Source of the DNA: Jejuia pallidilutea
GTDB lineage: Bacteria > Bacteroidota > Bacteroidia > Flavobacteriales > Flavobacteriaceae
Length of the DNA: 64,000 nucleotides
Assembly: GCF_002973595.1 (NCBI RefSeq)
Contig: NZ_PVEO01000004.1
Location: 310,001-374,000, forward strand
Reading direction: 5' to 3'
Positions 1,768-22,786 of the stretch are shown here, piece by piece. Under the pieces are notes generated by a model. That model was not told the origin of the DNA. It did no database searches and was given only the letters and a program-made list of their open reading frames with translations. How positions within the stretch are numbered: position 1 is the first letter of the stretch; the number at the start of each line of letters is the position of its first letter. Made by a program: the position numbers and the translations under genes.

Positions 1768-3120
1768 ATGAAAACAATATTAAGAGCTACGTTATTTGGT
1801 TTACTATTGGTTAGTAACATAATAGAAGCCAAAGACATAAAAATCAATTCCCTAAAAGAGTTGGCTAAATATGCTGCAGAAAGTGGCAATACCATAACCA
1901 TGGCTCCGGGAGTCTATCAATTAACTGATTATTTAACTCGGGATATTGTCGAAAACCAACGAATTAATAAAGAATATCAATACATCACTTTTAGCGGAAG
2001 TAATAATATTTTCAATCTAAAAGGCGTAGAAATTCAGGTAGATACGGAAATTAGGACTTGGCTAAAACCACCTATTCATTCTGATGAGTTTTTGGTTATG
2101 GGTTCAAATAATACGTTTTCAGGACTTACTATAAGGTGTGTGGGCAACGGGACCTCACCCGGAGGTACAGTATTACAAGTTGCTGGAGAGGCCAATGTTT
2201 TAAGAGATATTACGTTGCATGTAGCAGGCTCTTATCCTTATGGATATGGCGATTTATTTGGAAAAGGAAAACAAAAAGAAACTACTGTAAAACACAGAAA
2301 ACACAGCGGACTTTTAGTAACGGGAGATGAAACGAAGCTTTACGGATGTAAAATATTTAGTCGTTCTTTCGGGCATTGTTTTTTCATTCAGCAACATCCT
2401 AAAAATGTATATTTTGAAAACTGTTATGCCGAAGGAGAAGTACGCTCCACAGATGAAGTTTTGGCAGAAACATCAGGGCCTGCTTTTGATGTGAGTTTTA
2501 AAACATGGACTCAAAATCGTGAAGGTGAATATGTTGTAACGCCTGGTTATATGAAATCGCTTTGCGAAGATGGATTTAGAACCTATGGAACATGCGAAAA
2601 CATCACTTTTAAAAATTGCACCGCCAAAAATACTCGTGGCGGATTTGAACTTCGTTTTAACAAAGCGCATGTAGAAAATTGTACTACTATAGGAACAGAA
2701 CGTGGGTATTGGATTGGAGATAACACCACAATGATTAACTGTAAAGGAGATGCTAATTACGGGCCTCTATTGTTTGTTGAGGGAAGCAATGTAGAGGTTG
2801 AGTTGATGGTTGATTCGGCAGAATCTGATAGAAAAGTACATTCATTAATTACTGTTTTAGGAGATAATAATAAAGTAGTATTAAAAGCTACCGATGGAAA
2901 AAAGAGAACACAAGAATTACCAATTTTGGTAGGGTATACGCCTCCTATGCACGGTGAATCTATGTCTCCTTATAGTCAAGCCGAAGTAAATAAACTTCAT
3001 TTAATAAACCAAACAGGAATGCCGGTATCTGTTGGCCAAATGGTATCAAATTGTACTATTGAAACCAATGGTGAGGTGATAAAAAACAAGGGTAAGAATA
3101 ATCAAATACTAGAAAAATAA
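1768..3120 (+). CDS. secreted right-handed beta-helix protein, putative polysaccharide lyase (paralogue 1 of 5)
   Basis: A 450-residue protein with a Sec signal peptide ending near residue 21 (IIEA/KD). The body is a parallel beta-helix, seen as repeated short strands with Asn ladders such as SGSNN at residues 76-80. It shares a signature with four other proteins here: SYPYGYGD at 155-162, K175-H-R-K-H-S180, FGHCFFIQ at 201-208 and SGPAFD at 236-241. No C-terminal T9SS sorting domain is present, so it should be periplasmic. Beta-helix proteins in PULs are usually lyases (PL1/3/6/9 type, with catalytic Lys or Arg) or GH28-like hydrolases; I do not recognise this one as a named CAZy family. The conserved Lys/His pair is my candidate active site, which is inference. 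The next gene starts 3 bases after its stop. Confidence 0.75.
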   Translation: MKTILRATLFGLLLVSNIIEAKDIKINSLKELAKYAAESGNTITMAPGVYQLTDYLTRDIVENQRINKEYQYITFSGSNNIFNLKGVEIQVDTEIRTWLKPPIHSDEFLVMGSNNTFSGLTIRCVGNGTSPGGTVLQVAGEANVLRDITLHVAGSYPYGYGDLFGKGKQKETTVKHRKHSGLLVTGDETKLYGCKIFSRSFGHCFFIQQHPKNVYFENCYAEGEVRSTDEVLAETSGPAFDVSFKTWTQNREGEYVVTPGYMKSLCEDGFRTYGTCENITFKNCTAKNTRGGFELRFNKAHVENCTTIGTERGYWIGDNTTMINCKGDANYGPLLFVEGSNVEVELMVDSAESDRKVHSLITVLGDNNKVVLKATDGKKRTQELPILVGYTPPMHGESMSPYSQAEVNKLHLINQTGMPVSVGQMVSNCTIETNGEVIKNKGKNNQILEK

Positions 3121-3123
3121 TTT

Positions 3124-4500
3124 ATGAAAAAACGTCAAGCAGTTATCGTTTTAGGGTTTTTGTTGTTGTGTAATTTTATTCATGCAGCAGAAATTAAAAT
3201 AAACTCCTTAAAAGAATTAGCAACCTATGCTGCTAAAAGTGGAAATACCATTGTAATGAAACCAGGGGTTTATCAAATGGAAGATTATTTAACCTCAGAA
3301 ATTGTTAAAAACACCAAACCAGATAAAGTGGGAAGGTTTGCCATGATAAAGTTTTCTGGAAACCATAATGTTTTTGATTTAACTGGAGTAACCATTGAAG
3401 TTGATACAAAACTGTTAAGTGTTTTTAATGCACGAGTAAGTGAGTTTTATGTAGAAGGAAGTCATATACATATTAAAGGATTGACCGTTACAGATATCGG
3501 AAATCATCCAACGGCAAAAGGCGGGCATTCGTTTACAGTGGCTGGAGATCATGCTGTAATAGAAAAAGTAACCTTAAATATGAGCGGATCTTTTCCTTAT
3601 GGCTATGGCGATTTATTAGGAAAAGGCAAAGGCGCTTTGGTACCTTTAAAAAAGCACAGTGGAATGTGTATAGAAGGTTTAAATGATAAAATTATCGATT
3701 GTTCTATTTATTCAAAAGCTTACGGACACTGCTTTTTTGTGCAAGGTGGTCGTAATGTGCTTTTTGAAAATTGTTATGCAGAAGGTGTAACTAGAACTAC
3801 AGACGATATGCTATCTGAAATTTCAGGGCCAGCATTTGATGTGAATTTTGCATCGGTTTATAAAAATTATGCTGGTGAAAATAAAATAACTCCTGGGTAC
3901 ACAAAATCTTTAAATGAGTGTGGTTTCCGTATGTATGGAAAAGGTGGTGTAAACGGTGTCAAAACCGGAGCAGTGACCGCTATTAATTGTACCGCTAAAA
4001 ATACCCGTATTGGTTTTGCCTTTGCTAAAATTACAGGAGATGTTCTGATTAAAGATAGTAAAGCCATAGGGTGTGAATTAGGATACAATGTAGGAGGATT
4101 AACGGTTGAAAATAGTATAGGAGATGCAGCAAACGGACCCTTGTTATATGTAAATAAAGGAGAAAAGACAACGGTAGAACTGGCATTGTTGCCTACAGCA
4201 TCTAAAACTAAAGTGCATGTATTGGCTGCAATTGCTGGAGATAATCATAATATCATATTAACCAAATGGAGAAATATGAAAAGAGGACAACATCTCCCTA
4301 TCAAAATAGGAGCAACACGTCCGCCAGCAAATAATGGTTTTTCTCCGTTGGGAACGGCTAAAACTTCAGGGATTGTTTTAAATAATTCAACAGGAATGCC
4401 TGTGGAATTAAATTCTGAAACAAGTTTGTGTAAAATTATTACCAATAGCGAGGTTACCGATAAGGGTAGAGATAATAACGTATTAATAAGTCAAGAATAA
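3124..4500 (+). CDS. secreted right-handed beta-helix protein, putative polysaccharide lyase (paralogue 2 of 5)
   Basis: A 458-residue paralogue of the preceding gene, with a Sec signal peptide (cleavage near HAA/EI). It keeps the whole family signature: SFPYGYGDLLGKGKG, LKKHSGM, YGHCFFVQGGRN and SGPAFDVNF, then a TPGYTKSLNECGFRMYG segment. Its closest relative in the window is not a neighbour but the fifth copy at about 20.4 kb, which matches almost position for position through the helix and carries extra C-terminal domains. This copy has no T9SS domain, so it is probably the periplasmic counterpart of that exported version. Its stop and the next gene's ATG share one base (TAATG at 4498-4502), which suggests translational coupling. 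Function is inferred from fold and context only. Confidence 0.75.
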   Translation: MKKRQAVIVLGFLLLCNFIHAAEIKINSLKELATYAAKSGNTIVMKPGVYQMEDYLTSEIVKNTKPDKVGRFAMIKFSGNHNVFDLTGVTIEVDTKLLSVFNARVSEFYVEGSHIHIKGLTVTDIGNHPTAKGGHSFTVAGDHAVIEKVTLNMSGSFPYGYGDLLGKGKGALVPLKKHSGMCIEGLNDKIIDCSIYSKAYGHCFFVQGGRNVLFENCYAEGVTRTTDDMLSEISGPAFDVNFASVYKNYAGENKITPGYTKSLNECGFRMYGKGGVNGVKTGAVTAINCTAKNTRIGFAFAKITGDVLIKDSKAIGCELGYNVGGLTVENSIGDAANGPLLYVNKGEKTTVELALLPTASKTKVHVLAAIAGDNHNIILTKWRNMKRGQHLPIKIGATRPPANNGFSPLGTAKTSGIVLNNSTGMPVELNSETSLCKIITNSEVTDKGRDNNVLISQE

Positions 4501-5918
4501 TGAAACGAAACATAATTTTAAAGCTAATTGTTTTAGCTACTTGTATAACAACTTCACTTTCTGCTCAAATTAAAGTCAATTCTATAAGTGAGTTGCTACC
4601 ATATTTAGATGACGACCATGTTTCGGTAAAGCTAAAACCGGGCGTTTATTCCATAAAAGCGGAAGATGTGGCGAAAGGCCTATATCAAAAAGAAGTAAAA
4701 TTAAAAAATACGAGTAAGGTGTTATTACTTTTTGAAGGCAATCATAGTACTTACGATTTTACAGGTGTTACCATAAATATTGATACTAAAGTTTTACAGG
4801 CGTTTGGTAAATATCAGGTTCACGAGCTACAAATAATAGGCAATAATAACGTGCTTAAAAACTTAACGATGGTAGATGACGGTTCTGTACACGATGCCCC
4901 AACAAGACGTGCTACCAATATTGTTATGGATGGAAAAAATAATCGAATTGAAGGCTTTCACGTTACTACAAAAGGGTCTTACCCATACGGCTATGGCGAT
5001 GCTTTTGGTAAAGGTGGAAAAGTGGTAATTCCGCACCGAAAGCACAGTGCGTGCCTAATTCGAGGGGAGTCTAACCATTTAAAAGATTCCAAATTTATAC
5101 ATAAGAGTTACGGGCACTGTATTTTTATGCAAGCGGCTAGTAACCCAATTATAGATGGCTGTTACGTTGAGGGTGAAGTTCGTAAAACCGACGATATGTT
5201 GAAAGAAACATCGGGTCCTGCTTTCGATGTCGATTTTATGACGGTATGGGGCTATAAACTGCCAAAAGGTTATATGCTAAGTACGGGGGAGGCTGGTATT
5301 CGAGCGTATAATGCAGGTGAAACTATTATTGATGGTAAAGAATACAGGCGAGGTACTTCTAACCCAACCATTCTAAACTGTACTATTAAATTTATGAGAA
5401 CCGGTGTAACGATTGCACATGCTAGAGGTAAAAAATACGTAGAGGGTTGTGTGGCCATGGGTTGCGAAAACGGATTTTCATTGGGCTCTGGTGATGCCGT
5501 TAATTGTAGTGCAGATTGTAGCTATGGTCCTGTGTATTCTACAACTTATGAAAATGATAGAAACTACAATGCAGATATTACTATTCTACCTGCAAGCCAT
5601 CCATATTATAACGGTTCTGGAAGTGTGGCTTATATAGGAGGTAGCGGTCATAATATTACATTACGTGGTACAGATGAAGTTATAGAAAAAGGTTTAGCCA
5701 TTAAGGTTGGGGGCGATAAGAACAATATTCGTCTGTTAAACGGTAATTTTCCACATCAAAATGATTTTAAAGGCGGAAGTTTTCAGATAAAAAACCTAAC
5801 TAATTATCCAATATTTTTATCAGCTAAAAGTAATCACGTAGCTGGTGAATCTATAGGTGAAATTTCGGATCTAGGAACTAACAATAACATTAAAAAAATT
5901 AATAGACATGAAAAATAA
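4500..5918 (+). CDS. secreted right-handed beta-helix protein, putative polysaccharide lyase (paralogue 3 of 5)
   Basis: A 472-residue protein with a signal peptide ending at about LSA/QIKVN. It is the third tandem beta-helix paralogue and retains the signature: SYPYGYGDAFGKGGK, IPHRKHSAC, YGHCIFMQ, EGEVRKTDDM and SGPAFDVDF. A short insertion (EYRRGTSNP region, about residues 281-290) separates it from copies 1 and 2. No membrane anchor or T9SS domain is visible, so a soluble periplasmic enzyme is expected. It is joined to both neighbours: a 1-base overlap upstream and an 11-base overlap with the next gene downstream. Divergence among copies suggests different linkages or substitution patterns of one polymer rather than simple dosage; that is inference. 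Confidence 0.75.
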   Translation: MKRNIILKLIVLATCITTSLSAQIKVNSISELLPYLDDDHVSVKLKPGVYSIKAEDVAKGLYQKEVKLKNTSKVLLLFEGNHSTYDFTGVTINIDTKVLQAFGKYQVHELQIIGNNNVLKNLTMVDDGSVHDAPTRRATNIVMDGKNNRIEGFHVTTKGSYPYGYGDAFGKGGKVVIPHRKHSACLIRGESNHLKDSKFIHKSYGHCIFMQAASNPIIDGCYVEGEVRKTDDMLKETSGPAFDVDFMTVWGYKLPKGYMLSTGEAGIRAYNAGETIIDGKEYRRGTSNPTILNCTIKFMRTGVTIAHARGKKYVEGCVAMGCENGFSLGSGDAVNCSADCSYGPVYSTTYENDRNYNADITILPASHPYYNGSGSVAYIGGSGHNITLRGTDEVIEKGLAIKVGGDKNNIRLLNGNFPHQNDFKGGSFQIKNLTNYPIFLSAKSNHVAGESIGEISDLGTNNNIKKINRHEK

Positions 5919-6822
5919 ACAGTTTATTATTACTATCGGTTTATTGATTTCCATATTGAATATGGGAAATGTTTTTGCACAAGCACCAGTTTGGCAAGGA
6001 AAAGGACGAATAGCAATTAGTTCAGATGGTAATGAACACGATCATGACGATTGGGCTGCAACACCTTTAAGTTTGGCTCTACTTGCGGCAAAGGGACTTC
6101 AAGATAATTTGGTGCTTTTTACCTATAGCGATCACATTTGGGGAAGCAATCAAGAACATCCAACTTCAAAATCTGGATTGAACTCATATCAGCATATGCG
6201 TGAAAGTGCTTTGAAAGGTGGCGAATGGTTTGGTTTTAAGAAAACAAACTTTGTTTGTGCAGTAGATAATGCAGAGGTGGCTTATACGGCCATGCGTGAT
6301 GAAATCAATAAATCTTCAGAAGAAAGCCCTTTAATTATTATAGCCGCTGGCCCCATGCAGGTTGTAGGTGAGGCTATTAAGCGTGCCGATGTTTCTAAAC
6401 GTCAATATGTAAAACTTATTTCGCATTCTGGTTGGAACGATAACCACAGTGATAAACCACATAAAGATTTTTGGGATACCCATTCGGGGTGGACTTTTAA
6501 TGAGATAAAAGCCGCTTTTTCAGGAGAAGAAGGTGGAGGGTTAGAATGTATTCATATTGCTAATCAGAATGGAGGAAAAGGTTACGATGGCTTAAAAGCT
6601 CCGAAAGAAAAATTTGATTGGATAAAAACTTCAGAAGCTAAAAATAGTAAAGCCTACAAAAAAGGCGCTTGGGAATGGCTTTATTCAAGAATGGAAACTT
6701 GCGTTAAAAAAGGTGATTTTGACCCTTCGGATGCGGGTATGGTTGTATACATACTCACAGGTGTGGAAGAAACAAGTCCTGAACTTGCTAAAGAAATTAT
6801 GGAAAATCCTGTTCTAAAATAA
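5908..6822 (+). CDS. secreted nucleoside-hydrolase-like protein of unknown function
   Basis: A 304-residue protein with a Sec signal peptide (about residues 1-25, ending VFA/QAP). The segment after it, RIAISSDGNEHDHDDWAA, resembles the DxDxxxDD Asp cluster that binds calcium in inosine-uridine nucleoside hydrolases and in the nucleoside-hydrolase-like domain of some cellulose-binding proteins. A later segment, LIIIAAGPMQVV, resembles the GPLTN motif of the same fold. These enzymes cleave ribosyl or related N- or O-glycosides, but the remaining sequence is distant and I cannot assign an activity. The start overlaps the previous beta-helix gene by 11 bases and a fourth beta-helix gene follows 20 bases on, so it is embedded in the operon. 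It may act on an unusual sugar end or modification. The fold call is tentative. Confidence 0.5.
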   Translation: MKNKQFIITIGLLISILNMGNVFAQAPVWQGKGRIAISSDGNEHDHDDWAATPLSLALLAAKGLQDNLVLFTYSDHIWGSNQEHPTSKSGLNSYQHMRESALKGGEWFGFKKTNFVCAVDNAEVAYTAMRDEINKSSEESPLIIIAAGPMQVVGEAIKRADVSKRQYVKLISHSGWNDNHSDKPHKDFWDTHSGWTFNEIKAAFSGEEGGGLECIHIANQNGGKGYDGLKAPKEKFDWIKTSEAKNSKAYKKGAWEWLYSRMETCVKKGDFDPSDAGMVVYILTGVEETSPELAKEIMENPVLK

Positions 6823-6842
6823 TTTAAGAATTAAATAAGGAT

Positions 6843-8291
6843 ATGAAAGCTACAATACTTTTTATAATATTCACACCTATGTTGCTGTTTGTTTCGTTTC
6901 AAGATGAAACTGAAATAAAGCAGGTAGAATTACCGGTTTCTAATCTTGCTGAACTAAGGGAAGCAGTAACAAAAAGCAATCAAGTTATTACCCTAAAGCC
7001 TGGTAACTATATTATCACCGAACTACCAGAAGATGCTCGAAGTTTTGTTTGTTCGGGGTCTAATAATATTATAAACCTTTCAGGGGTTTATATTGATTTT
7101 CCAGTAGGAACATGTAAGGATGCTCATTTTAATTTCACAGGCTCTAATAATAAGCTTAGTGGTGGCGTTTTTGAAGAGACCTATCAAAATGGAATGAAGG
7201 AAGTGACCGATTTTGGAAGCTATAACCAAAATAGGAAAACTTTGGCAAAGGGACTTAAAGGTGGGGCAGGTTTCAGATTATCTGGAAATGGAAATACCAT
7301 TGAGGGGATTAAGCTAACCGTAAGAGGATCGTTTCCGTATGGTTATGGAAATATGTATGGTATTGGAAGAGGAAATGCCACAGGACTGGATAAACGATGC
7401 GCCATGTTGATAACGGGTGTTGGTAACACGGTTGATAACTGCGAATTTCAGCACAGAGCTTTTGGCCATGTGATATACATGCAAAAAAACGCCGATAAAA
7501 CCGTAATAAAAAACACTTACATTGAAGGCGCCGTGCGCCCAAGTAACGATACATATAAAGAAACCAATGATGGCGATTTGCCCAAGCGTTTCAATTATAA
7601 AATGCCTTTAGGTGCTATGAAAGGTTTACCTATTCCCAAAGATGTGATGTTCAATTTAACAGAAGACGGTATTAGAGCCTATAATATTCCAGGCTCTGTT
7701 ACAGTTGAAAATTGCACGGTAGTTAAGTGCCGTGGTGGAATAAAACTTTACATGGCAAAAGGTGAGGTAAAAGTAATCAATAGCACGGTTTTAGATTGTG
7801 TGGTGGAAGGCTATTCACTTAACAACGGCGGTGAAATGATAAACTGTAAAGGCAATGCTGCATACGGCCCATTAATTTACATGCATTTCGATAAGGTGTC
7901 CAATCAAAAAATAGACTTAACGGTGTTGCCATCACCACATGCGGTGGGTAATCATGTGTTTGCAGCTATAAAAGGCACAGGGCATCAAATACATATCAAG
8001 CGCGCCAATTTCAAAGGGGAAATTGATAATACACTTCGCCCAATTGTTGTAGGCTATCCAGCAAGGTTTGAGTTTTTAACAACCGATTATCCGGGTGTAC
8101 CTAAGGGTTACGAAGAAAATTTTGAGAAACATTTCGGAGATAAAGATTACACGGCAATTAACATAACCATTAAAAACGATACGGAGTACCCTGTAATATT
8201 AGGAGCTAAATCGCATGATAATCACATAAAAAGTGTTGGTATCATTACAGATTTAAACAAAAGCAATAGTATAAAACAAATTGAAAATTAG
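6843..8291 (+). CDS. secreted right-handed beta-helix protein with altered signature (paralogue 4 of 5)
   Basis: A 482-residue beta-helix protein with a short hydrophobic N-terminus (about residues 3-18) that should act as a signal peptide. It is homologous to the other four copies: SFPYGYGN at 163-170 and FGHVIYMQ at 207-214 align. However, the invariant (K/R)KHS of the other copies is replaced by DKRCAM (183-188), and the SGPAFDV segment after the helix turn is absent, replaced by NDGDLPKRFNYKMP. If those residues are catalytic, this copy has either lost activity or changed substrate. It is the last gene of the first tight cluster; a 177-base gap follows before the large lyase gene. The beta-helix assignment is strong; enzymatic activity is uncertain. 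Confidence 0.7.
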   Translation: MKATILFIIFTPMLLFVSFQDETEIKQVELPVSNLAELREAVTKSNQVITLKPGNYIITELPEDARSFVCSGSNNIINLSGVYIDFPVGTCKDAHFNFTGSNNKLSGGVFEETYQNGMKEVTDFGSYNQNRKTLAKGLKGGAGFRLSGNGNTIEGIKLTVRGSFPYGYGNMYGIGRGNATGLDKRCAMLITGVGNTVDNCEFQHRAFGHVIYMQKNADKTVIKNTYIEGAVRPSNDTYKETNDGDLPKRFNYKMPLGAMKGLPIPKDVMFNLTEDGIRAYNIPGSVTVENCTVVKCRGGIKLYMAKGEVKVINSTVLDCVVEGYSLNNGGEMINCKGNAAYGPLIYMHFDKVSNQKIDLTVLPSPHAVGNHVFAAIKGTGHQIHIKRANFKGEIDNTLRPIVVGYPARFEFLTTDYPGVPKGYEENFEKHFGDKDYTAINITIKNDTEYPVILGAKSHDNHIKSVGIITDLNKSNSIKQIEN

Positions 8292-8397
8292 GTGAAGTTT
8301 TTTTTATAAAATGAAAAACCTAACATAGAAAACACTTTCAATTATTCATATAAAACTAAACATACATGAGTAAAAGAACATAATTTATATAAAAGGA

Positions 8398-8416
8398 AAC
8401 ATGGTTTATACATGTT
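8398..8416. promoter_or_regulatory. inverted repeat AACATG-N7-CATGTT upstream of lyase gene
   Basis: A perfect 6-base inverted repeat with a 7-base spacer lies 53 bases upstream of the start of the large lyase gene, in the only sizeable gap of the first third of the PUL. Its size fits a dimeric regulator's half-sites. No copy was noticed upstream of the other units, so a role as operator is only a possibility. Confidence 0.25.
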
Positions 8417-8468
8417 GCTTTTTTGGTAGTGTAATTTTAGGCTATAATATTAAAACTAAATAAGATAT

Positions 8469-11369
8469 ATGAATAAGCTTACACTTCAATTGTTTTTACT
8501 ATTCATACTTTCATTTTCCTTTGTAAACACCGTTAAGGCACAATTCGTTCATCCAGGAATTACCCACAAAAAATCCGATCTTGATAGAATTAAGCACATG
8601 GTTGAAGCTGAAGTTGACCCATGGTATACTTCCTACCAAGAAATGATTTTAGATCCTAAATCAAGTTACGACTATGTAGTACAGGGAGACCCTTCATTCA
8701 CAGAATTAGGAAGAAATAATAAAGTGAATTATGGTGCATGGAACAGTGATATACGTGCAGCGTATTACAATGCTTTACGATGGTATGTTGAGGACGATAC
8801 CCGTTATGCAGAAAAGGCTATTGAAATTTTTAATGCTTGGGTAAATTTAGAAGCTGTAACCAGTAACGGCACTATGGCACTGAGTGGAGGAGTTGGTTAT
8901 ATTATGATAGAGGCTGCAGAAATTATAAAACATACCTATAACGGTTGGTCTGAAACCGACCGGAAAAAATTTGAAGATATGTTGGTTTTTCCAGGATACT
9001 CCAATACACAAGTTCCTGCAAGTGTTTCTAGAAGCTACGGCACGTTTTATTGGCAATCTTACCAAGGTGACTCTGGGCGCCATGGCAACCAAGGTTTGTC
9101 TGGATGGAGAACGGTAATGGCCATTGGAATATTTCTAGATAATGAAATAATTTATGATCGCGCATTGCGCTATATAAAAGGGCTACCTCACCGCTCAGAC
9201 GATTTGCCTTACCCATCAGGACCGCCTACAATAGGAGAATTACTTTCCTCAACTGAATATGTAGATACCTATCGTGCCACTTCAGGAACTTCAATTCCAG
9301 ATTATGGCTTTAATGAAGTTATGACCAATTATATTTACGAGAATGGGCAGTGTCAAGAAAGTTCTAGAGATCAACAACATACAGCTTTCGGTATCGGTTT
9401 ATTAACGTCAATGGCGGAAATGGCATGGAACCAAGGCGACGATTTATACAGTCATGCCAATGATAGGTTACTGTCAGGTTTAGAATATAATATGAGGTAT
9501 AATGTGTCTGCCATTCAATCGTACCCAGACCAAACTACACCTTGGGAGCCAACAGTAACATCGGGAGAATTTGAGGAAGGATTCGATAGAACCGGACGCT
9601 GGTATTCAAAAGCTATTAGTCCAGATGGAAGAGGAGAGTTTCCAGGGGTAAGACCTGTTTACGAAATGCCTGTAGCCCATTATTTAGGAAGAGGTTTAAA
9701 AAATGAAAATGATGTGTTATGGACTAAAAGAGCACGTGATAAAGCTATAGAAATTTCAGGATATGAAGCCGCTGGTTGGACTAACGATGCTATTGGTTGG
9801 GGTGCGCTTACAGCTCGCCGTCCTGCGTATTGTTATGGTGATCCTATTTCTGGGTTTGATGGTAGTGGCTTGCCTATTTATAATATGAATACTACTGAAA
9901 GTACGATAGAAGCTGAAAACTTTGATTACGATCCAATACACCAAGGAGAAGGAAGAATATACCACGATCTAAGCACTTCAAACACAGGGGGAGCATATAG
10001 AATATTTGATGGAGTTGATATTGAAAGTACGCCAGCTAATCAGTACAACATAACTTCTATACAAGCAGGTGAATGGTTAACCTACACTGTGGCAGTTCCC
10101 AAAAGCGCTTTGTATAGTATTACCATTAACTATGCGGCTTTACAATCAGGTGGTACTATGAAGATTAATGTTGGAGGCGAAGATAAAACCACTGATGTAG
10201 AAGTGCCTTTTGGAGTGCCAAATTCAACCGGTGCTACCGACTGGAAATCTTTTACAATTGCTGAAGATATTTTGTTAGAAAAAGGCGTACAGAGTTTTAA
10301 AATAATGTTTAATGGTACTTCTGAATCTTTTAAACTTGATAGTTTTTCAATAGTACAAACAGGTATTGCTAAATCAGATCAGACCATAGAGTTTTTTACC
10401 ATTTCAGATAAGGTAGTGGGAAGTGCAGATTTTGATCCTGAGGCTAAAGCTAGCTCTGATTTAGAAGTAATCTATTCAAGCTCAAACCCTTCAGTGGCCA
10501 CTATAGTGAATGGAAAAGTACATATAGTGGGAGCAGGAACAACAACCATTATAGCTAATCAATCGGGTAACGAGTTTTTTAATGCTGCACCAAGTGTGGA
10601 CCAACAACTTCGAGTAGTTGATGCTGTAGAGGGTACTTTAAGTTTAGATGCCGATGCTGACGCCTATGTACATGAGTCCAACCCTAATAATAACTATGGT
10701 TCTGCTGAGGTTTTGGTTACTAAAGTTGAAGGGAGATACGCGTTTTTAAAATTCAATTTAAGTAGTATTCCGGGACCTATAGTTTCGGCGACACTTAGAA
10801 TTTATCAACGAACAGGCTTCCGCGACCTTCGTGCGGTGTATGATGTTGAAGATGATAGTTGGACGGAAAATGGCATAACATGGAACAATAAGCCAGCTTT
10901 TGATAATGAACGGGCAAGCGTTACAACAACTTCTACTTGGAGCGAATGGGATATTTCATCATACGCCGCGCAAGAGTATAACGGTGATAAAATAATTACG
11001 GTTGCTGTAAAAGATCCAGCGAATAGCGGCACAGGTATTGATTTCCGAAGTAAAGAATTCGGACCTGATTATGCTCCAGAGCTTGTGGTGGAATATTCGA
11101 GTGAGGCACTTAGCGTTAATGAAATTAAGATGCCAATTGAATTATATCCTAATCCTGCTACCAAAGAGTTGAATGTGTATTTAGGAAACTTTACAAATAC
11201 AGGAAAGACAACATTATCACTTTACACCTTAAAAGGTGAAAAAGTAATGGAGGTAAGTCCTGAGCACGATAAGGCAATTCTAAACCTTTCAAAACTCAGC
11301 GCTGGAGTGTACGTGTTGTTGGTTAAAAATGGTGATAAAATAGCTTCAAAAAAGATAGTTAAGATTTAA
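8469..11369 (+). CDS. alginate-lyase-superfamily (PL38-like) multidomain enzyme, T9SS-exported
   Basis: A 966-residue exported protein. Signal peptide at 1-24 (VKA/QF). Residues about 25-485 form an alginate-lyase-superfamily (alpha/alpha)-toroid that starts with the typical FVHPGITHKKSDLDRIK and contains GQCQESSRDQQHTAFG, whose Arg and His are likely active-site residues. Then come a CBM6-like beta-sandwich (about 475-638), a short Ig-like (Big) module (about 643-720), a DNRLRE beta-sandwich (about 724-890; some such modules bind alginate) and a T9SS type-A sorting domain (IELYPNP to the end). The toroid resembles PL38 (glucuronan lyases) more than classic PL5, but family and substrate need a search. 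It should act on the cell surface or outside, making the first cuts in a uronic-acid-containing chain. A paralogue lies at 14680. Confidence 0.8.
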   Translation: MNKLTLQLFLLFILSFSFVNTVKAQFVHPGITHKKSDLDRIKHMVEAEVDPWYTSYQEMILDPKSSYDYVVQGDPSFTELGRNNKVNYGAWNSDIRAAYYNALRWYVEDDTRYAEKAIEIFNAWVNLEAVTSNGTMALSGGVGYIMIEAAEIIKHTYNGWSETDRKKFEDMLVFPGYSNTQVPASVSRSYGTFYWQSYQGDSGRHGNQGLSGWRTVMAIGIFLDNEIIYDRALRYIKGLPHRSDDLPYPSGPPTIGELLSSTEYVDTYRATSGTSIPDYGFNEVMTNYIYENGQCQESSRDQQHTAFGIGLLTSMAEMAWNQGDDLYSHANDRLLSGLEYNMRYNVSAIQSYPDQTTPWEPTVTSGEFEEGFDRTGRWYSKAISPDGRGEFPGVRPVYEMPVAHYLGRGLKNENDVLWTKRARDKAIEISGYEAAGWTNDAIGWGALTARRPAYCYGDPISGFDGSGLPIYNMNTTESTIEAENFDYDPIHQGEGRIYHDLSTSNTGGAYRIFDGVDIESTPANQYNITSIQAGEWLTYTVAVPKSALYSITINYAALQSGGTMKINVGGEDKTTDVEVPFGVPNSTGATDWKSFTIAEDILLEKGVQSFKIMFNGTSESFKLDSFSIVQTGIAKSDQTIEFFTISDKVVGSADFDPEAKASSDLEVIYSSSNPSVATIVNGKVHIVGAGTTTIIANQSGNEFFNAAPSVDQQLRVVDAVEGTLSLDADADAYVHESNPNNNYGSAEVLVTKVEGRYAFLKFNLSSIPGPIVSATLRIYQRTGFRDLRAVYDVEDDSWTENGITWNNKPAFDNERASVTTTSTWSEWDISSYAAQEYNGDKIITVAVKDPANSGTGIDFRSKEFGPDYAPELVVEYSSEALSVNEIKMPIELYPNPATKELNVYLGNFTNTGKTTLSLYTLKGEKVMEVSPEHDKAILNLSKLSAGVYVLLVKNGDKIASKKIVKI

Positions 11370-11451
11370 AATTAAACTAATAGTACAATACTAGAAAACA
11401 AAAAGTACTTCATAGAAGGTGAATTGTATGTTGTTCGTAAACGTTAATTGC

Positions 11452-12969
11452 ATGATGAATAAGGCTTGTTCTAATAAAGAAAATATACAGTCGAATCCCA
11501 TACTGTTTATAAAAACAAGCTTATTTCTATTGCTTATAGTTTTAACGATGTCTTGTAAGGAAAACGAAATTACAAAATCACCTAAAAACATCCTCTTAAT
11601 TTGTGTAGATGATTTACGCCCCGAGTTAAATACATTCGGCGCCACTTATATTAAATCACCGCATATAGACGAATTAGCTTCAAAAGGTCGCGCATTTCAC
11701 AACCATTTTGTTAATGCACCTAGTTGTGGACCTTCGAGATATACCTTATTAACAGGTCAATATGGGTTACAGTACAGACAAAATGGTAATAGAGCATTAT
11801 TTTTTCGCGCAAAGAATAAAACTTCAAATTCGGGGAGTGTTCCACCGAGCATGCCAGAGTGGTTTAAACAACACGGATATACCACGGTTTCGGTGGGTAA
11901 AGTGTCGCATCACCCAGGCGGTAGAGGTGGAGAAAATTGGAATGATAATACTATTCCAGAAATGCCAGATGCGTGGGATGAACATATAATGCCAGTAGGA
12001 GCGTGGAAAACACCTAGAGGAAGTATGCACGGGTTGGCGCACGGGAGAATTAGAACAGATACAGATAGAGCAGTAATTGAAACGGTGGATGATGGCGATA
12101 ATAGTTATCCAGACGGCCTAATAGCGGAAGAAGGACTAAAACAACTTGAAACGCTTGCAAACGCAGATAAACCATTTTTTTTGGCAATAGGGTTAATTAA
12201 GCCACATTTGCCTTTTGGTGTTCCAAAAACGTATTTAGATATGTATGAAGGTGTTGAAATCCCACCCATTCCGCATCCAGAGAAACCCGAAGGCAAAACA
12301 ACGTGGCATGCATCCAAAGAATTTATGAATTATCATCGTGGAGGTAGAAACCCGAATGAAGATGTTGATTTTGCAATGGAATTGAAAAAATACTACGCAG
12401 CTTGTGTAAGTTATGCCGATAAACATGTAGGCGACATTCTATCGAAATTAAAAGAAACGGGCGCCGATAAAAACACTATCGTCGTATTGTGGGGAGACCA
12501 CGGTTGGCATCTTGGAGAACATGCCATTTGGGGTAAACATGCACTTTTTGATGAATCGTTGCATTCACCACTAATAATTTACGCTCCCGAAATGGAGCAA
12601 AATGGAAAAAAAAGTGACGCCTTTGTAGAAACTATAGATGTTTTTCCAACATTATGCGAACTTAGCGAACTTCCTGTGCCCAATTTTGCGCATGGTGTTT
12701 CATTAAAACCCATTTTAGATAACCCAGAAGCAGAGGGTCATTCTGTAGCGGGATATTATACAAATGCATCAACACTTAGAACTCCTAATTACAGATTTAT
12801 ACAGCATAAAATTGGTGATGTTGAACTGTATAATCATAATTCAACAGAAAAAGAAACGAAGAATATTGCCAACGAAAATCAAGAATTAGTTAACACACTT
12901 AAACATCAACTTGAAGAAAAGTTAGGTCCGCTGGCTTTTAGTTGGGATGTTAAGCAAAATAAAAAATAA
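11452..12969 (+). CDS. lipoprotein sulfatase, family S1 (iduronate-2-sulfatase-like)
   Basis: An S1 (formylglycine-dependent) sulfatase that hydrolyses sulfate esters from sugars. The maturation motif CGPSR has its Cys codon at 11725-11727, followed by YTLLTG; the N-terminal metal site ICVDDLRPEL and the C-terminal WGDHGWHLGEH are present, and the overall layout resembles the iduronate-2-sulfatase group (S1_7-like). The signal peptide ends in a lipobox (LTMSC), so it is membrane-anchored. The start is uncertain: the frame is open from a GTG at 11419 and ATGs at 11428, 11452 and 11455; I chose 11452 because it leaves a normal-length lipoprotein signal. A second sulfatase follows 10-34 bases downstream. 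Cys-type maturation needs a formylglycine-generating or anSME enzyme, which is not in this window. Confidence 0.85.
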   Translation: MMNKACSNKENIQSNPILFIKTSLFLLLIVLTMSCKENEITKSPKNILLICVDDLRPELNTFGATYIKSPHIDELASKGRAFHNHFVNAPSCGPSRYTLLTGQYGLQYRQNGNRALFFRAKNKTSNSGSVPPSMPEWFKQHGYTTVSVGKVSHHPGGRGGENWNDNTIPEMPDAWDEHIMPVGAWKTPRGSMHGLAHGRIRTDTDRAVIETVDDGDNSYPDGLIAEEGLKQLETLANADKPFFLAIGLIKPHLPFGVPKTYLDMYEGVEIPPIPHPEKPEGKTTWHASKEFMNYHRGGRNPNEDVDFAMELKKYYAACVSYADKHVGDILSKLKETGADKNTIVVLWGDHGWHLGEHAIWGKHALFDESLHSPLIIYAPEMEQNGKKSDAFVETIDVFPTLCELSELPVPNFAHGVSLKPILDNPEAEGHSVAGYYTNASTLRTPNYRFIQHKIGDVELYNHNSTEKETKNIANENQELVNTLKHQLEEKLGPLAFSWDVKQNKK

Positions 12970-12979
12970 ATTAAGACGA

Positions 12980-14497: not shown

Positions 14498-14520
14498 ATA
14501 TTAAGTTGTTTTTAGTTTTA

Positions 14521-14559
14521 AAAAGTGCTGTATTCTAATATTCGAATACAGCACTTTTT
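14521..14559 (+). terminator. rho-independent terminator after second sulfatase gene
   Basis: A perfect 15-base-pair stem (14521-14535 with 14544-14558) closes an 8-base loop and is followed by a T-rich tract. It lies 24 bases after the sulfatase stop and separates the first PUL unit from the second. Confidence 0.85.
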
Positions 14560-14679
14560 GTTGTTGGCTGTTATGTGTGGATGATTATGAGTAATAAGTT
14601 TAAGTCATAGCATCATAATTTACACTCTTTTTAAGTATCTATTAATAATATTACAACAACTAATTTAACTAAATAACAT

Positions 14680-17268: not shown

Positions 17269-20200
17269 TAGGAATTACAATAAGCCATAAAATAATTTTT
17301 TTTAAAATATCTAAAGCGTTATTTGTTGTAGTGTTATTTGCTTCTAGTTTTGAGGTTATTGGGCAATCTATAACTGTAAATTCTACCAATTATAAACAAA
17401 CTATAGATATGATAGGTGGCGATATGGAACGTAGTTCCAAAGCCATTCAAAATGCCCAAAATAAAGAAGATATACTTCAATGGAGTTTTGGAGACATTAA
17501 TTTTAATGTGTGTCGTGTACAATACGATAAAAACCAAGAATTAGTTGAAGGCGTTAAAAATTGGGCGTTTTACGATAAGCAAGTTGCAACTATGCAAGCT
17601 ATTAAGGCTATAAACCCAAATATTAAGTTTTTTGCTACCATGCGTTCAGATTATGATGGCTATGGCGATGATAACAATATGCCAGATTGGATTCATACCT
17701 ACAGTACCAAAGCAACCAATGTGGTAAAATATGGTATATTTTTAGCCGACTACTGTGAATATATGAGTAATCAAGGGGTACCCATTGCAATACTTTCTAC
17801 AGCAAAAGAATGGATGTGGCATGTTAGAGCCTCAGAAGCCGAAAATATTATAAATACTTTAAATACAGAACTAGATAACCGAGGTATAGAAAAACCAATA
17901 ATTATAGATCAAGGGTTTTGGAGTATTACCGCAGGGTTAACCTATTTAAATGATGTACAATCATTGGGAACAAAAGATTTATACTCGGGTTTTTGTAGTC
18001 ATAACTATTCAAACCTAGGACCTGAAAAATGGGCTGAAATTTCAAATAAGGCAAATAGTTTGGGTAAACCCATGTACGATGATGAAACCAGTACAGGTAG
18101 TGGGTCTCCAACATACGGTGAAGAAAGACCAATGTGGAAACAAATCGATGAGTATAAAGAAAAAGCGCAACGCTATGAAGCTGGGTTAAGTGGAGAAGTT
18201 TATTTTGAAATTTGGTCTAGAGGCATAGATAAAGAAACTCGCGCCATTTATTTTCCGGCAAATGGAATAGGTACCAGACTTAGAGGGTATTATATCATGA
18301 AACATTTTTCAAATAATATTTTAAATTATAATTACCTTACTGCTTCGGTAACTAGTGCATCAAATGTATATACAATAACCTTTAGAAAAGATGATAACAT
18401 AGTACTTTGGGTAATTAATGAAAGTAATACTGAATATACATTGCCTATAACAATGGATAATTCTAGTATAACAAGTGCAATTGCTACTCATTACTGGACA
18501 GACAATACACCAATTGAAGGTAAGGAAACTTCATATATAGCTTCAGGAAATACGTTTATTCCTATCGTAGAAGCAGAAAGTATGAATTGCTATATTTTTA
18601 ATGTAACTGAAGATGCTGTGGATGTTTGCAGTTTGCCTCAAACAATCTTGTATGAAGCAGAATGTTATGATGATATGCAAGGGGTGTCTACAGAAGTAAG
18701 TACCGAAGGTACCGATAATGTAACATTAATAGAGAACGGCGATTGGATTAAATTTAACGCCATCGATTTTAGCGCTGGGTTAAACAAATTTAGTGCGCGT
18801 GTTGCTAGTAATACATCTGGTGGAACCATAGAAATGCGTATGGGTAGTGTTTCAGGGACCTTAATAGGCGAACTGTCTGTAAGTAATACGGGTGGTTGGC
18901 AATCTTGGACAACACAGACTTTTGATTTTAATAGACAGAGTGGTGTACAAGATTTGTATTTGGTATTTACTGGTAATACAGGTAGTCTTTTTAATCTCAA
19001 TTGGATTATGTTAGAGGCTATTCCGCCTTCAATAAGTTTAAATATAACTGCCGGTGATGAGTCTGTTTCTTTAAATTGGACAACGAGTTATGTTCAGTTA
19101 GGAACTCAGAATATATATAGAAATACAAGTTCTGATATAGGTACACGTTCATTATTGGTAGCCGATGTTTCAGGAAACAGTTATATTGATACTTCGGTGA
19201 CCAATGATACAACATATTGGTATTGGGTTGAAGCCATTGATGAGTCGTCTACAGTAACCAATTCAGAGGGGGTTGAAGGCACTCCAACGGATCTTGAATT
19301 CGATTTAACTGGAGTTGCTATTTCTGATACTGAAATTAACCTCAGTTGGCCAGACGAAGAAAAAGTAGAAAGTGGGTTCTTGGTGGAGCGAAAAGAAGGC
19401 AATAGCGCTTACCAGGAAATTGCAAATTTGGGGCCAAATGTTTTTTCCTTTAGCGATTCTGGACTTAATCCTTTATCTACTTACACGTATCGGGTAAAGG
19501 CTTCTTATACAGATGGAAGCACTAATTATTCCTTAGAGTTGCCTATAACCACCTTCAATACAGATTACGAAACCTTAATTTTTAATACAACTGAAGACGC
19601 TTATGTAAGAGGTGGTGATCATGCAGGGCTAAATTTTGGTGGAGATACTAACCTTATTGTGAAACAGGGTAGTAATAGTAGTTTTTTCAGAAAATCGTTA
19701 TTAAAGTTTAATTTGAGTAGTGAAGATCTTGTAAACGATAACATTGGTAGGGCTGTACTTAAATTGTATGTAAATCAAGCAAATCCATGCACAATAACAG
19801 CATCTGAAATAACTGATAGTTGGTCAGAATCAACTGTTACTTGGAATTCCGCTCCCTCATCTGGGAGTGATATAGGAGCAATAGATATTTCTAATACTAC
19901 AGGGTTTTATGAATTAGATGTTACAGCTTATGTGAAGAACCAATTTGATGATGATAAAATTATTTCCATTTCAATTGAAGATTTTGGAGCATCCAATGTA
20001 AATGTTTTAATCAATAGTAAAGAAGCGACAAATAATATCCCAGAACTTGTAATTAATAAAGTAGATTATAGTGCCTTAAGTATTTCTAAGCATTCAGATT
20101 TAAACACAATAAATATTTATCCAAATCCTGTGTCAAATACTTTTAGAGTTAGTAATAGTTTAAATTCAGAAGTCGTTATTTATAATCTTTTTGGTAACCA

Positions 20201-20327
20201 AGTTTTAAAAACTAATATCACTCAAAATAATCAATCAGTAAATATTGATCATTTAACATCTGGAGTTTACTTTGTGCGAGTAAAGAAACATGGAAACCAA
20301 ACAACAACAAAAATAGTTAAGAACTAA
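17265..20327 (+). CDS. clan GH-A-like glycoside hydrolase with CBM6, FnIII and DNRLRE modules, T9SS-exported
   Basis: A 1020-residue exported enzyme. After the signal peptide (about 1-34, ending VIG/QS) comes a TIM-barrel hydrolase resembling GH30-type clan-A enzymes (about 36-450): IDMIGGDMERSS, the beta-4-like strand VPIAILSTAKEW with E182 as likely acid/base, and PMYDDETSTG with E274 as likely nucleophile. The usual Asn before the acid/base Glu is Lys here. Next are a CBM6 module (about 462-590), two fibronectin type III domains (about 595-765), a DNRLRE module (about 770-930) and a T9SS type-A domain (IYPNPVSNTF to the end). It is translationally coupled to the lyase upstream (4-base overlap). 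It is probably an endo- or exo-beta-glycosidase acting outside the cell; the exact family is unknown to me. Confidence 0.7.
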   Translation: MIGITISHKIIFFKISKALFVVVLFASSFEVIGQSITVNSTNYKQTIDMIGGDMERSSKAIQNAQNKEDILQWSFGDINFNVCRVQYDKNQELVEGVKNWAFYDKQVATMQAIKAINPNIKFFATMRSDYDGYGDDNNMPDWIHTYSTKATNVVKYGIFLADYCEYMSNQGVPIAILSTAKEWMWHVRASEAENIINTLNTELDNRGIEKPIIIDQGFWSITAGLTYLNDVQSLGTKDLYSGFCSHNYSNLGPEKWAEISNKANSLGKPMYDDETSTGSGSPTYGEERPMWKQIDEYKEKAQRYEAGLSGEVYFEIWSRGIDKETRAIYFPANGIGTRLRGYYIMKHFSNNILNYNYLTASVTSASNVYTITFRKDDNIVLWVINESNTEYTLPITMDNSSITSAIATHYWTDNTPIEGKETSYIASGNTFIPIVEAESMNCYIFNVTEDAVDVCSLPQTILYEAECYDDMQGVSTEVSTEGTDNVTLIENGDWIKFNAIDFSAGLNKFSARVASNTSGGTIEMRMGSVSGTLIGELSVSNTGGWQSWTTQTFDFNRQSGVQDLYLVFTGNTGSLFNLNWIMLEAIPPSISLNITAGDESVSLNWTTSYVQLGTQNIYRNTSSDIGTRSLLVADVSGNSYIDTSVTNDTTYWYWVEAIDESSTVTNSEGVEGTPTDLEFDLTGVAISDTEINLSWPDEEKVESGFLVERKEGNSAYQEIANLGPNVFSFSDSGLNPLSTYTYRVKASYTDGSTNYSLELPITTFNTDYETLIFNTTEDAYVRGGDHAGLNFGGDTNLIVKQGSNSSFFRKSLLKFNLSSEDLVNDNIGRAVLKLYVNQANPCTITASEITDSWSESTVTWNSAPSSGSDIGAIDISNTTGFYELDVTAYVKNQFDDDKIISISIEDFGASNVNVLINSKEATNNIPELVINKVDYSALSISKHSDLNTINIYPNPVSNTFRVSNSLNSEVVIYNLFGNQVLKTNITQNNQSVNIDHLTSGVYFVRVKKHGNQTTTKIVKN

Positions 20328-20347
20328 TTAGATTCTATAATCACAAT

Positions 20348-22786
20348 ATGAAATTATTAATTATGAGTAGTATGAAACAACTATTTACAAAAAGCATTAT
20401 TGGAGTTTTTATTTTGATGTCATTTACATTTAGTGTTCACTCACAAATTGTGGTTTCAAGTATTGCAGAACTAGCAAGTGCGGCTTCTCAATCTGGACAA
20501 ACAGTAACCATGACTCCTGGAGTTTATGAAATGGCTGATTATTTAACGCCCACGGTAATTTCTAATAACACACCGGCAGATGCATTTGGAAGAAGAGCCA
20601 TGATTCGTTTTAGTGGAAGCAACAATACGTTTGATTTTACTGGAGTAACAATTAATGTTGATACGGACTTGTTAAACGATTTAGGAGGGCATGTTATTGA
20701 ATTTCATTTAACAGGTAATTACATCAATTTTAAAGGCTTAACGGTTACAGATATTGGCAATAGTCCAACAGCCAGTGGTGGACAATCCATGACCGTGTCT
20801 GGAGACCATATCACTGTAGAAAATGTAACACTTAATATGAGCGGATCATCACCTTATGGCTATGGCGATTTGCTCGGTAAAGGAGGAGGAGCGTTAGTGC
20901 CCATGCGAAAACATAGTGGTTTATTGGTTGGAGGGCTTAATGTTAACATCATTGGGTGTTCAATATATTCAACTTCATTTGGGCATTTGTTTTTTATTCA
21001 AGGCGGTAGAAATGTGCTGTTTCAAGATTGTTACGCAGAGGCTGCTACAAGAACAACCGATGACATGCTTGCTGAAACATCAGGACCTGCATTTGATGTT
21101 GGTTTTCAAGCGGTTTATCCTAATTATAACGGAGAAAAAGTAATAACACCGGGTTATACAAAGTCGCTAAGTGAGTGTGGTTTTCGTACATATGGTTCAG
21201 GTGCTAATGGCTATAATACTGAGGGTGTAACATTTATAAATTGTATAGCTAGAAATACTCGCGTTGGTTTTGCGTTAGAAGTTGGTAGTCCACTATTAGT
21301 TCAAAATTGCGAAGCTACAGGTAACGAAGCTGGTTTTAATGTAAAAAATGTTACCATTGAAAATAGCCGTGGCGACGCTGTTAACGGGCCATTATTATAT
21401 CTATCGGGAGACGATTCTGATGTTGAATTAGAACTTATGCCAACACTTCCAACAACAACACTCCACGCAATAGCAACCATTGCAGGTAATAATCATAATG
21501 TAACACTAACAAAATGGAACGATGAAACCAGAACACAAGACCATAAAATTTTAGTTGGTGCAACCAGACCTACAGGTACAAATCCATTTTCTCCATTAGG
21601 CAGTACAGCTACCTCTGCTGTTGTCTTAAATAATTGTACCGAAATGCCTGTAGAAATACTATCAAACACAAGTTCTAGTATCATAAATACTACAGGAGCT
21701 GTTATAAATAATGGAATTGGAAATACGGTTATTACCGATTCCTGCGAGGGGATTGAAAATTTAGATTTTGATGATGGTACTTATACCTACAGGGTATTAG
21801 AAGCCAATCCTAATATATGTGAAGTAACGGGATTTGTTTCCGGTCAAGATATGGCAAACGCAATAATACCAGAACAAGCCACCAATAACTCAATTCCGTT
21901 TGATATAGTGTCTGTTGGTGTTGGTGCTTTTCAAAGTAATTCCATTATTGTTAATGTCACACTTCCTAGTGGCGTTACCAATATAGGTGCTGATGCCTTT
22001 CGTAGTTGTTCAAATTTAACAATTATAAACCTTGAAAATATCATAACCTACGGTAGCCATAGTTTTAACGGGTGTGTTAACTTAACATTAGCTTCATTGG
22101 ATTTTACGAATACAACCAATGTAGGTGATTACTGTTTTTTAAACTGCGGAAAAGTATCCTCAGTGGTTGTTCCAGGTAGCGTTATTTTAGGTGTTGGGGC
22201 ATTAAGATCTACAGGTATTACGTCTTTTACCATTCCTGATGAATGGACAGTACTCCCAGACCAAATGATAAGAGATTGTAAGTCAATTACCAATATTAAC
22301 ATTCCAAGTACAATAACCACTATGGGAGTAGCATCCTTTAGAGGTTGTACAGGTATAACAGATATACAAGTAAATTGGACTACATCCACTAGTATTCCAG
22401 ATGCAACTGTAAATAATTTATTTAGTGGTATGACTTTAAGTAATGTAAATTTATTAGTACCACCTGATACAGTTTCTTATTATGAAGCAGCACCAATTTG
22501 GACAGATTTTAATATACAACAAGGTGTATTAAGCACAAAAGAAGCAATTTTAGAAAATGGCTTTAATATATATCCTAATCCAACGGAGGGAATGGTTTAT
22601 ATTAAAAACAAACAATCAATAAACGCTACTATTTTGATTTATGATGTAAGAGGGAGTAATTTATTTAACAAAATAATAGATACTTCAGAAATTCAGATTG
22701 ATGTTTCTAGCCTATCAAAAGGGATTTACTTACTCAAAATACAAGCAGAAAACAATCAATTTGTAAAACGCATAGTAAAGCAATAA
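20348..22786 (+). CDS. beta-helix putative lyase fused to BspA-type leucine-rich repeats, T9SS-exported (paralogue 5 of 5)
   Basis: An 812-residue fusion. The signal peptide ends near VHS/QIV; the start may be ATG 20348, 20363 or 20372, the last giving the most usual signal length. Residues about 35-455 are the beta-helix with the full family signature (SSPYGYGDLLGKGGG, MRKHSGL, FGHLFFIQGGRN, SGPAFDVGF) and are closest to the copy at 3124. Residues about 475-735 are BspA-type LRR_5 repeats (GAFQSN, LPSGVTNIGADAFRSC, INIPSTITTMGVASFRGC). The end is a T9SS type-A domain (IYPNPTEGMV). So this is the extracellular member of the family, with the repeats probably binding the polymer or a cell surface. 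The same repeat unit recurs as a free-standing protein in the next gene. Confidence 0.75.
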   Translation: MKLLIMSSMKQLFTKSIIGVFILMSFTFSVHSQIVVSSIAELASAASQSGQTVTMTPGVYEMADYLTPTVISNNTPADAFGRRAMIRFSGSNNTFDFTGVTINVDTDLLNDLGGHVIEFHLTGNYINFKGLTVTDIGNSPTASGGQSMTVSGDHITVENVTLNMSGSSPYGYGDLLGKGGGALVPMRKHSGLLVGGLNVNIIGCSIYSTSFGHLFFIQGGRNVLFQDCYAEAATRTTDDMLAETSGPAFDVGFQAVYPNYNGEKVITPGYTKSLSECGFRTYGSGANGYNTEGVTFINCIARNTRVGFALEVGSPLLVQNCEATGNEAGFNVKNVTIENSRGDAVNGPLLYLSGDDSDVELELMPTLPTTTLHAIATIAGNNHNVTLTKWNDETRTQDHKILVGATRPTGTNPFSPLGSTATSAVVLNNCTEMPVEILSNTSSSIINTTGAVINNGIGNTVITDSCEGIENLDFDDGTYTYRVLEANPNICEVTGFVSGQDMANAIIPEQATNNSIPFDIVSVGVGAFQSNSIIVNVTLPSGVTNIGADAFRSCSNLTIINLENIITYGSHSFNGCVNLTLASLDFTNTTNVGDYCFLNCGKVSSVVVPGSVILGVGALRSTGITSFTIPDEWTVLPDQMIRDCKSITNINIPSTITTMGVASFRGCTGITDIQVNWTTSTSIPDATVNNLFSGMTLSNVNLLVPPDTVSYYEAAPIWTDFNIQQGVLSTKEAILENGFNIYPNPTEGMVYIKNKQSINATILIYDVRGSNLFNKIIDTSEIQIDVSSLSKGIYLLKIQAENNQFVKRIVKQ

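Follow-up and report, generated by a model that had tools for sequence, protein, structure and literature searches.

The closest described relative of the genes considered here is FdlA of Flavobacterium sp. SA-0082, a sulfated fucoglucuronomannan (fucoidan) lyase for which a structure and mutants were described in 2022 (PMC9410043). According to that paper, the enzyme cuts the alpha-1,4 bond between mannose (Man) and glucuronic acid (GlcA) in a metal-independent manner and releases an unsaturated trisaccharide; absorbance at 232 nm (A232) was measured for the purified catalytic domain, and the trisaccharide was identified by mass spectrometry (MS). Lys141 and Tyr242 were proposed there as the base and the acid, respectively. 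The variants D137A, K141A, H176A, F179A, E236A, R240A, Y242A and Y242F were reported as inactive and R272A as active, and substrate binding persisted in K141A and D137A although their activity was abolished. His176 is located 2.8 Å from the Tyr242 hydroxyl. Lys151 (K151) is not one of the 11 residues mutated in that study, and neither Lys151 nor Arg198 occurs in its main text. FdlA is termed unclassified in papers of 2018 and 2022 (PMC6267234, PMC9410043), and no polysaccharide lyase (PL) number for it was met in open-licence literature listings. In this study we analysed a stretch of 64,000 nucleotides (referred to as the window; positions 310001-374000 of contig NZ_PVEO01000004.1, here C4) of the 4.1-Mb genome of Jejuia pallidilutea. 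The window contains five open reading frames (ORFs) whose products belong, by homology, to the already studied FdlA family. Four of them are ordinary new members, and the fifth belongs to a variant class that questions the published catalytic assignment.

The five ORFs, and the two codons that distinguish the fourth, are listed below. K-type denotes a lysine at the position of FdlA Lys141, and K-less another residue at this site.

1768..3120, + strand: putative FdlA-family lyase copy 1, K-type, 450 amino acids (aa); match to FdlA PDB chains, E 7e-50; residue map
3124..4500, + strand: putative FdlA-family lyase copy 2, K-type, 458 aa; E 1e-55; residue map
4500..5918, + strand: putative FdlA-family lyase copy 3, K-type, 472 aa; E 5e-165; residue map
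6843..8291, + strand: FdlA-family copy 4, K-less class, 482 aa; E 5e-34; model and fold match; residue map
7350..7364, + strand: two changed codons in copy 4, N170 (7350-7352) and I174 (7362-7364); residue map; the same Asn/Ile pair is present in four orthologues (76-83% identical)
20348..22786, + strand: putative FdlA-family lyase copy 5, K-type, 812 aa, with a BspA-type leucine-rich repeat (LRR) region and a type IX secretion (T9SS) sorting tail; E 4e-54; Pfam LRR_5 and Por_Secre_tail

A preliminary description of this DNA had correctly located all five ORFs, but considered them a candidate new lyase family with an unrecognised signature. This does not hold, since a search of PDB sequences matched all five proteins with the nine FdlA chains 7xz7-7xzf (E 5e-34 to 5e-165), and a profile built from the five rows matched FdlA with an E of 1e-131. 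The product of ORF 4500 is the nearest to FdlA (58% identity), and the match of the 6843 protein spans residues 144-480 only. The AlphaFold model of the latter (pLDDT 89.1, pTM 0.89; 52-row alignment A4) is a right-handed beta-helix, and FdlA chains take the first 11 places among its fold matches in the PDB (TM by query 0.76-0.78, E 2e-24 to 5e-22). The beta-helix predicted earlier is thus modelled in one copy, and in the other four it is expected from their homology to the solved FdlA chains.

In favour of a family unrelated to any known lyase is the behaviour of the motif libraries: the catalytic domains of the five proteins did not reach the cut-off of any Pfam or NCBIfam model, and sub-threshold or generic beta-helix matches were the only ones obtained. 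One copy located upstream of the window (L009:13140) passes the cut-off of the generic Beta_helix model (27.5 vs 25.9 bits), and among 52 relatives NCBIfam detected the generic para_beta_helix in four and NosD in one (E 0.01). The family therefore appears unknown as long as such libraries are consulted, and it was the PDB sequence search that solved its identity. Given the strong sequence and fold matches to solved FdlA, we regard an unrelated new family as refuted in the form in which it was stated, with a negligible residual probability. Four of the five proteins gave a strong match with an already described lyase whose catalytic residues they share (E 7e-50 to 5e-165), and retain all seven mutation-sensitive residues of FdlA; the 6843 protein is homologous (E 5e-34) but three of its seven residues are changed.

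The five window copies share 26-56% pairwise identity. When the window is translated in all six frames, the pattern P[YW]G[YF]G is met at five places, one per copy, and since the copies are homologues their common signature is not due to chance. Our alignment confirmed its PYGYG core, while the preceding residue, previously given as S or F, is Y in two copies, F in two and S in one. Similarly, the glutamine motif is IQ in two copies and MQ in two, as described, but VQ in copy 3124. KHS and SGPAFD are each found in four of the five copies, the exception being 6843, which carries DKRC instead of KHS and lacks SGPAFD. The signature can be read directly on FdlA (the numbering of PMC9410043 is used throughout; PDB chain numbers are higher by 17, consistently for all seven residues, and the cysteine numbers of the paper fit an offset of 16): (i) D137 is placed in PYGYGD and K141 in the next GKG, (ii) K151 is the lysine of KHS, (iii) H176 lies in (F/Y)GH, and (iv) E236, R240 and Y242 form part of ExG(I/F)RxY. 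The earlier suggestion of Lys, His or Arg in the active site is consistent with this map, in which the signature falls on K141, H176 and R240.

In copy 1768, residues D162, K166, K178, H203, F206, E267, R271 and Y273 correspond to FdlA D137, K141, K151, H176, F179, E236, R240 and Y242, and D137, K141, H176, F179, E236, R240 and Y242 are all kept in 1768, 3124, 4500 and 20348. The paralogues recognised previously form an incomplete set, as the genome encodes nine (all between C4:271140 and C4:332786), four of which lie upstream of the window. The seven mutation-sensitive residues are complete in seven of the nine; two of the upstream copies share 70.6% and 72.5% identity with the FdlA catalytic domain. 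Copy 6843 has N170, I174 and Y212 at the positions of D137, K141 and F179, and keeps K184, H209, E274, R278, Y280 and R297, among them four of the seven mutation-sensitive residues. On these residues it is classified as a homologous variant, not as an FdlA-type enzyme. A second K-less copy is located upstream (C4:304849-306255; L011:8849-10255), with Tyr and Leu at positions 137 and 141 (PWGYGY...GLG).

We performed a survey of the active-site residues in 184 domains, comprised of 183 distinct domains from the fetched loci and FdlA (23 rows were dropped by length, and rows contained in longer ones were removed). The genomes were scanned with the pattern GS[YFS]P[YW]GYG[DYN], and one further search had 6843 as the query; in the latter genome set three genomes seem to be duplicated (G002/G324, G138/G314 and G173/G300, with identical coordinates and scores). 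Because of this biased sampling, the class fractions reported below are not natural frequencies; the coupling of positions 137 and 141 and the invariant columns are less exposed to the bias.

The FdlA columns invariant in 184 of 184 domains are five glycines and K151, H176, E236, R240, Y242 and R272. Position 141 is not one of them: it is occupied by K in 136 domains, I in 35, L in 12 and V in one. Its state is strictly coupled to that of position 137, where the 136 K-type rows without exception carry D, E or H, and the 48 K-less rows S, N or Y. A first, smaller survey of 146 rows (18 dropped by length) gave the same split, with 115 K-type and 31 K-less rows. These patterns indicate that the K-less class, including copy 6843, is a widespread and conserved sister class without the residue proposed as the catalytic base. 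It was found in genomes of Bacteroidota and of Kiritimatiellota/Verrucomicrobiota. We met no mention of the K-less class in the open-licence literature, in which no search was aimed at it.

The K-less rows were also inspected for a base that might replace the lysine. Several basic columns belong to one group, 189 and 276 to that of 6843 and further ones to the group with the PW motif, and one, position 46, is common to both groups. This position is basic in 45 of the 48 K-less rows (Arg 41, His 3, Lys 1; R66 in 6843), compared with 11 of the 136 K-type rows. The 6843 group additionally has R at 152, K at 189 and R or K at 276. The PW motif is present in 17 of the 184 sampled domains, and one of these clusters with the 6843 class in one of the quick trees. 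Five K-type rows (L136, L137, L138, L152 and L189) contain His at FdlA position 179 and adjoin the 6843 class in the trees; they are possible intermediates.

Among 299 genomes of the same taxonomic family (own included), 14 have a match with E <=1e-3, and 10 (again including the own genome) have a strong one (E <=5e-80). The scan of named genomes revealed 169 stretches encoding a relative, of which 77 loci were kept, from Bacteroidota (including Mariniflexile fucanivorans), Verrucomicrobiota and Kiritimatiellota. K-type and K-less domains occur together in 18 of the 19 genomes tallied from fetched loci, a hand-chosen set in which several genomes were included due to their 6843 match and some copies were not fetched; the remaining genome, Pelagicoccus, has six K-type domains only. 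Two Persicobacter plasmid records match 6843 with approximately 30% identity.

The compared pairs show the K-less class to be under purifying selection. In a close K-less orthologue pair the non-synonymous (dN) and synonymous (dS) divergence were 0.008 and 0.09 (ratio 0.09). For 6843 and its nearest orthologue dN was 0.117 at a near-saturated dS, and in three further pairs dS was beyond estimate. Two K-type controls, also at high dS, gave dN/dS values of 0.08 and 0.10.

In a quick tree of the 146 rows, copy 4500 is placed in a 94-row group containing FdlA, copies 1768, 3124 and 20348 on three branches within a group of 18 rows, and copy 6843 in a 24-row K-less group; Kiritimatiellota rows occur in each of these groups. 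The window copies are spread over separate old groups, and are not recent tandem duplicates. The quick trees show two independent changes at K141 (starred branches force two). This scenario was not retained, since in a one-clade test on the 146-row set a tree with all 31 K-less rows in a single clade was better by 20.7 log-likelihood units (p-AU, from the approximately unbiased test, 0.739); a single K-less origin is thus not rejected, and two origins are not claimed. The trees are unrooted, and the change may be a gain or a loss of the lysine.

Taken together, we consider it very probable that the five proteins are FdlA-family members acting in a fucoidan locus, with four putative FdlA-type lyases and 6843 representing a conserved K-less class; our proposal is that the Tyr242/His176 chemistry is shared and that positions 137/141 serve the choice of substrate. 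The four K-type copies (1768, 3124, 4500 and 20348) would act by FdlA-type, metal-independent beta-elimination; their most likely target, from homology, is the backbone of a uronic-acid-containing sulfated fucan, e.g. Man-alpha-1,4-GlcA in sulfated fucoglucuronomannan. A polysaccharide lyase function, as guessed in the preliminary description, thus gains support from FdlA. All five proteins are probably exported, judging from an inspection for signal peptides by eye.

By analogy, both classes are most likely lyases, in which Tyr242 with His176 would carry out the elimination and Arg240 and Lys151 would neutralise the carboxylate. The 137/141 pair would then shape the pocket and set the choice of substrate, and K141 would not be a universal base. 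This proposal is based on the absence of K141 from the polar residues common to all 184 domains, on the 2.8 Å distance mentioned above, and on the PL12, PL21 and PL33 lyases, which are described as using a single Tyr for both the acid and the base role on GlcA at +1, activated in PL33 by a His (PMC11848413). The stronger statement, that the FdlA family comprises two catalytic classes working side by side on one sulfated polymer, the K-less one eliminating without the published base lysine, is put forward tentatively, at somewhat less than even chances. If it is true, the reaction is carried by Tyr242 and His176, or by Lys151, or (in the K-less class) by Arg at position 46, and positions 137 and 141, being coupled, work as a switch of specificity.

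Several observations weigh against this proposal. The loss of activity in FdlA K141A and D137A (PMC9410043) fits K141 as the base, and would make 6843 inactive if it has no rebuilt site; it is compatible with the Tyr242/His176 chemistry only if K141 is needed for FdlA's own substrate. A rebuilt site with another base is possible, given the basic residue at position 46 in nearly all K-less domains. R272 is invariant and yet R272A is active, so that invariance alone is no proof of catalysis. No solved structure of a K-less domain was present among the PDB matches seen, the survey is biased by its motif pattern and by the use of 6843 as a query, and the catalytic activity of all copies described here is predicted. 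Furthermore, FdlA and FdlB were reported to degrade fucoidans of Fucus and Sargassum without yielding an A232 product (PMC6267234), so that even their designation as lyases is disputed for some substrates.

The main alternative is that K141 is the base, as published, and that the K-less proteins, including 6843, are catalytically dead and hold or present the polymer. The retention of binding by the two inactive FdlA mutants (PMC9410043) agrees with this, as does the lack of D137, K141 and the KHS and SGPAFD stretches in 6843. A binding protein would have no need, however, to keep H176, E236, R240, Y242 and K151 in 48 of 48 domains, and the distribution of the class over Bacteroidota and Kiritimatiellota/Verrucomicrobiota, together with the purifying selection observed in the compared pairs, also speaks against it; we consider a dead class unlikely. 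We attach the same low probability to the view that the K-less class uses the Tyr/His/Arg core on another uronate, for another reaction (e.g. C5-epimerisation or hydrolysis) or with a new base such as Arg46. The class-specific S/N/Y137 and I/L/V141, the basic residue at position 46 and the additional basic residues of the 6843 group (152, 189 and 276) would suit such a change, and the weak fold matches obtained with the 6843 model include the beta-helix epimerases AlgE4 and AlgG, but with E of 6e-4 and 1e-3, far weaker than that of FdlA (2e-24), and the neighbours of K-less genes are fucoidan genes common with the K-type. It is highly improbable that the family members in this locus are endo-fucanases (hydrolases) and not lyases. 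This possibility stems from PMC6267234, which suggests cleavage of fucosyl bonds by FdlA and FdlB; the fucoidans used there are not known to contain GlcA-Man backbones. The A232 signal and the unsaturated trisaccharide obtained with the purified FdlA catalytic domain argue against it, and the assignment of FdlA as a lyase follows PMC9410043 and the older work cited there.

The genes surrounding the family copies point to the same polymer. Those scanned include a SusC-like/SusD pair (C4:225799-230531), four GH29 and one GH95 fucosidases, eight sulfatases, and genes for GH116, GH31, GH39, GH43, GH30, GH3 and alginate-lyase/heparinase-like proteins. This composition suggests a large locus for the use of brown-algal fucoidan, and favours a sulfated fucan or fucoglucuronomannan over alginate; the notion of several paralogues serving one polysaccharide locus is supported. 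The neighbours in the window include the following.

5908..6822, + strand: conserved 304-aa protein encoded between copies 3 and 4; library scans, gene order and model
8469..11369, + strand: Alginate_lyase-domain (PF05426) protein with CBM6, CBM96 and a T9SS tail; Pfam and gene order
11419..12969, + strand: sulfatase; PF00884
12947..14497, + strand: sulfatase; PF00884

A PDB search with the 8469 protein matched its accessory domains and not the lyase part. A second PF05426 Alginate_lyase-domain protein, with CBM6 and a T9SS tail, is encoded at 14680-17268 (+ strand), and both products are candidate lyases acting on the same polymer. The ORF at 17265-20327 (+ strand) encodes a protein whose residues 35-448 are weakly similar to the glucuronoxylanase XynC (E 5.5e-6), with CBM6, CBM96 and a T9SS tail and no Pfam GH30 match. 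The BspA-type LRR region with a T9SS tail, fused to the putative lyase in 20348-22786 (+ strand), is found as a stand-alone protein in the next gene (22990-24150, + strand).

In Algibacter amylolyticus, orthologues of 4500, 5908, 6843 and 8469 are present in the same order (80%, 85%, 83% and 73% identity), with two extra genes between those of 6843 and 8469. The 5908-6822 protein had no match in Pfam, NCBIfam or PDB sequences. It shares D40, N42, D45, D47, D48, H173 and N177 with 15 aligned relatives, and its model (pLDDT 85.4) shows a weak likeness to nucleoside hydrolases, with a best E of 7e-5 and a TM by query of 0.40-0.48 over the first 17 matches; the protein may be a new glycosidase with a nucleoside-hydrolase-like fold.

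The breakdown of fucoidan is slow and poorly understood, and is of relevance to marine carbon storage and to the production of defined oligosaccharides. We met no sequence-known uronate-cutting fucoidan lyases other than FdlA and FdlB in the open-licence literature. The existence of a K-less sister class makes the published K141 base proposal easily testable, and a single genome with nine copies, including two K-less ones, provides natural variants for testing both the identity of the base and the role of positions 137/141 in the choice of substrate.

Among the known systems, the Tyr-His lyases of PL12, PL21 and PL33 resemble the FdlA family in the proposed chemistry, with one Tyr as acid and base on GlcA; this is an analogy of mechanism, with no homology claimed, and the fold of PL33 is an alpha/alpha toroid (PMC11848413), unlike the beta-helix of the FdlA family. 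The PL6 alginate/chondroitin lyases also form a right-handed beta-helix and come directly after FdlA when the 6843 model is compared by fold (best E 2e-6, TM 0.44). Membership of 6843 in PL6 was nevertheless rejected, since the PL6 chains reach a TM by query of 0.36-0.50 (0.76-0.78 for FdlA) at 10-13% identity, with E weaker than that of FdlA by 18 orders of magnitude. The PL6 site uses Lys/Arg with calcium. In the case of FdlA/FdlB of Flavobacterium sp. SA-0082 (PDB 7xz7-7xzf, FdlA), the whole catalytic domain is homologous to the window copies, with approximately 32% identity for 1768, 3124 and 20348 and, over part of its length, approximately 31% for 6843. The window proteins differ from FdlA in that four of the five lack its C-terminal regions and 6843 does not keep D137, K141 and F179.

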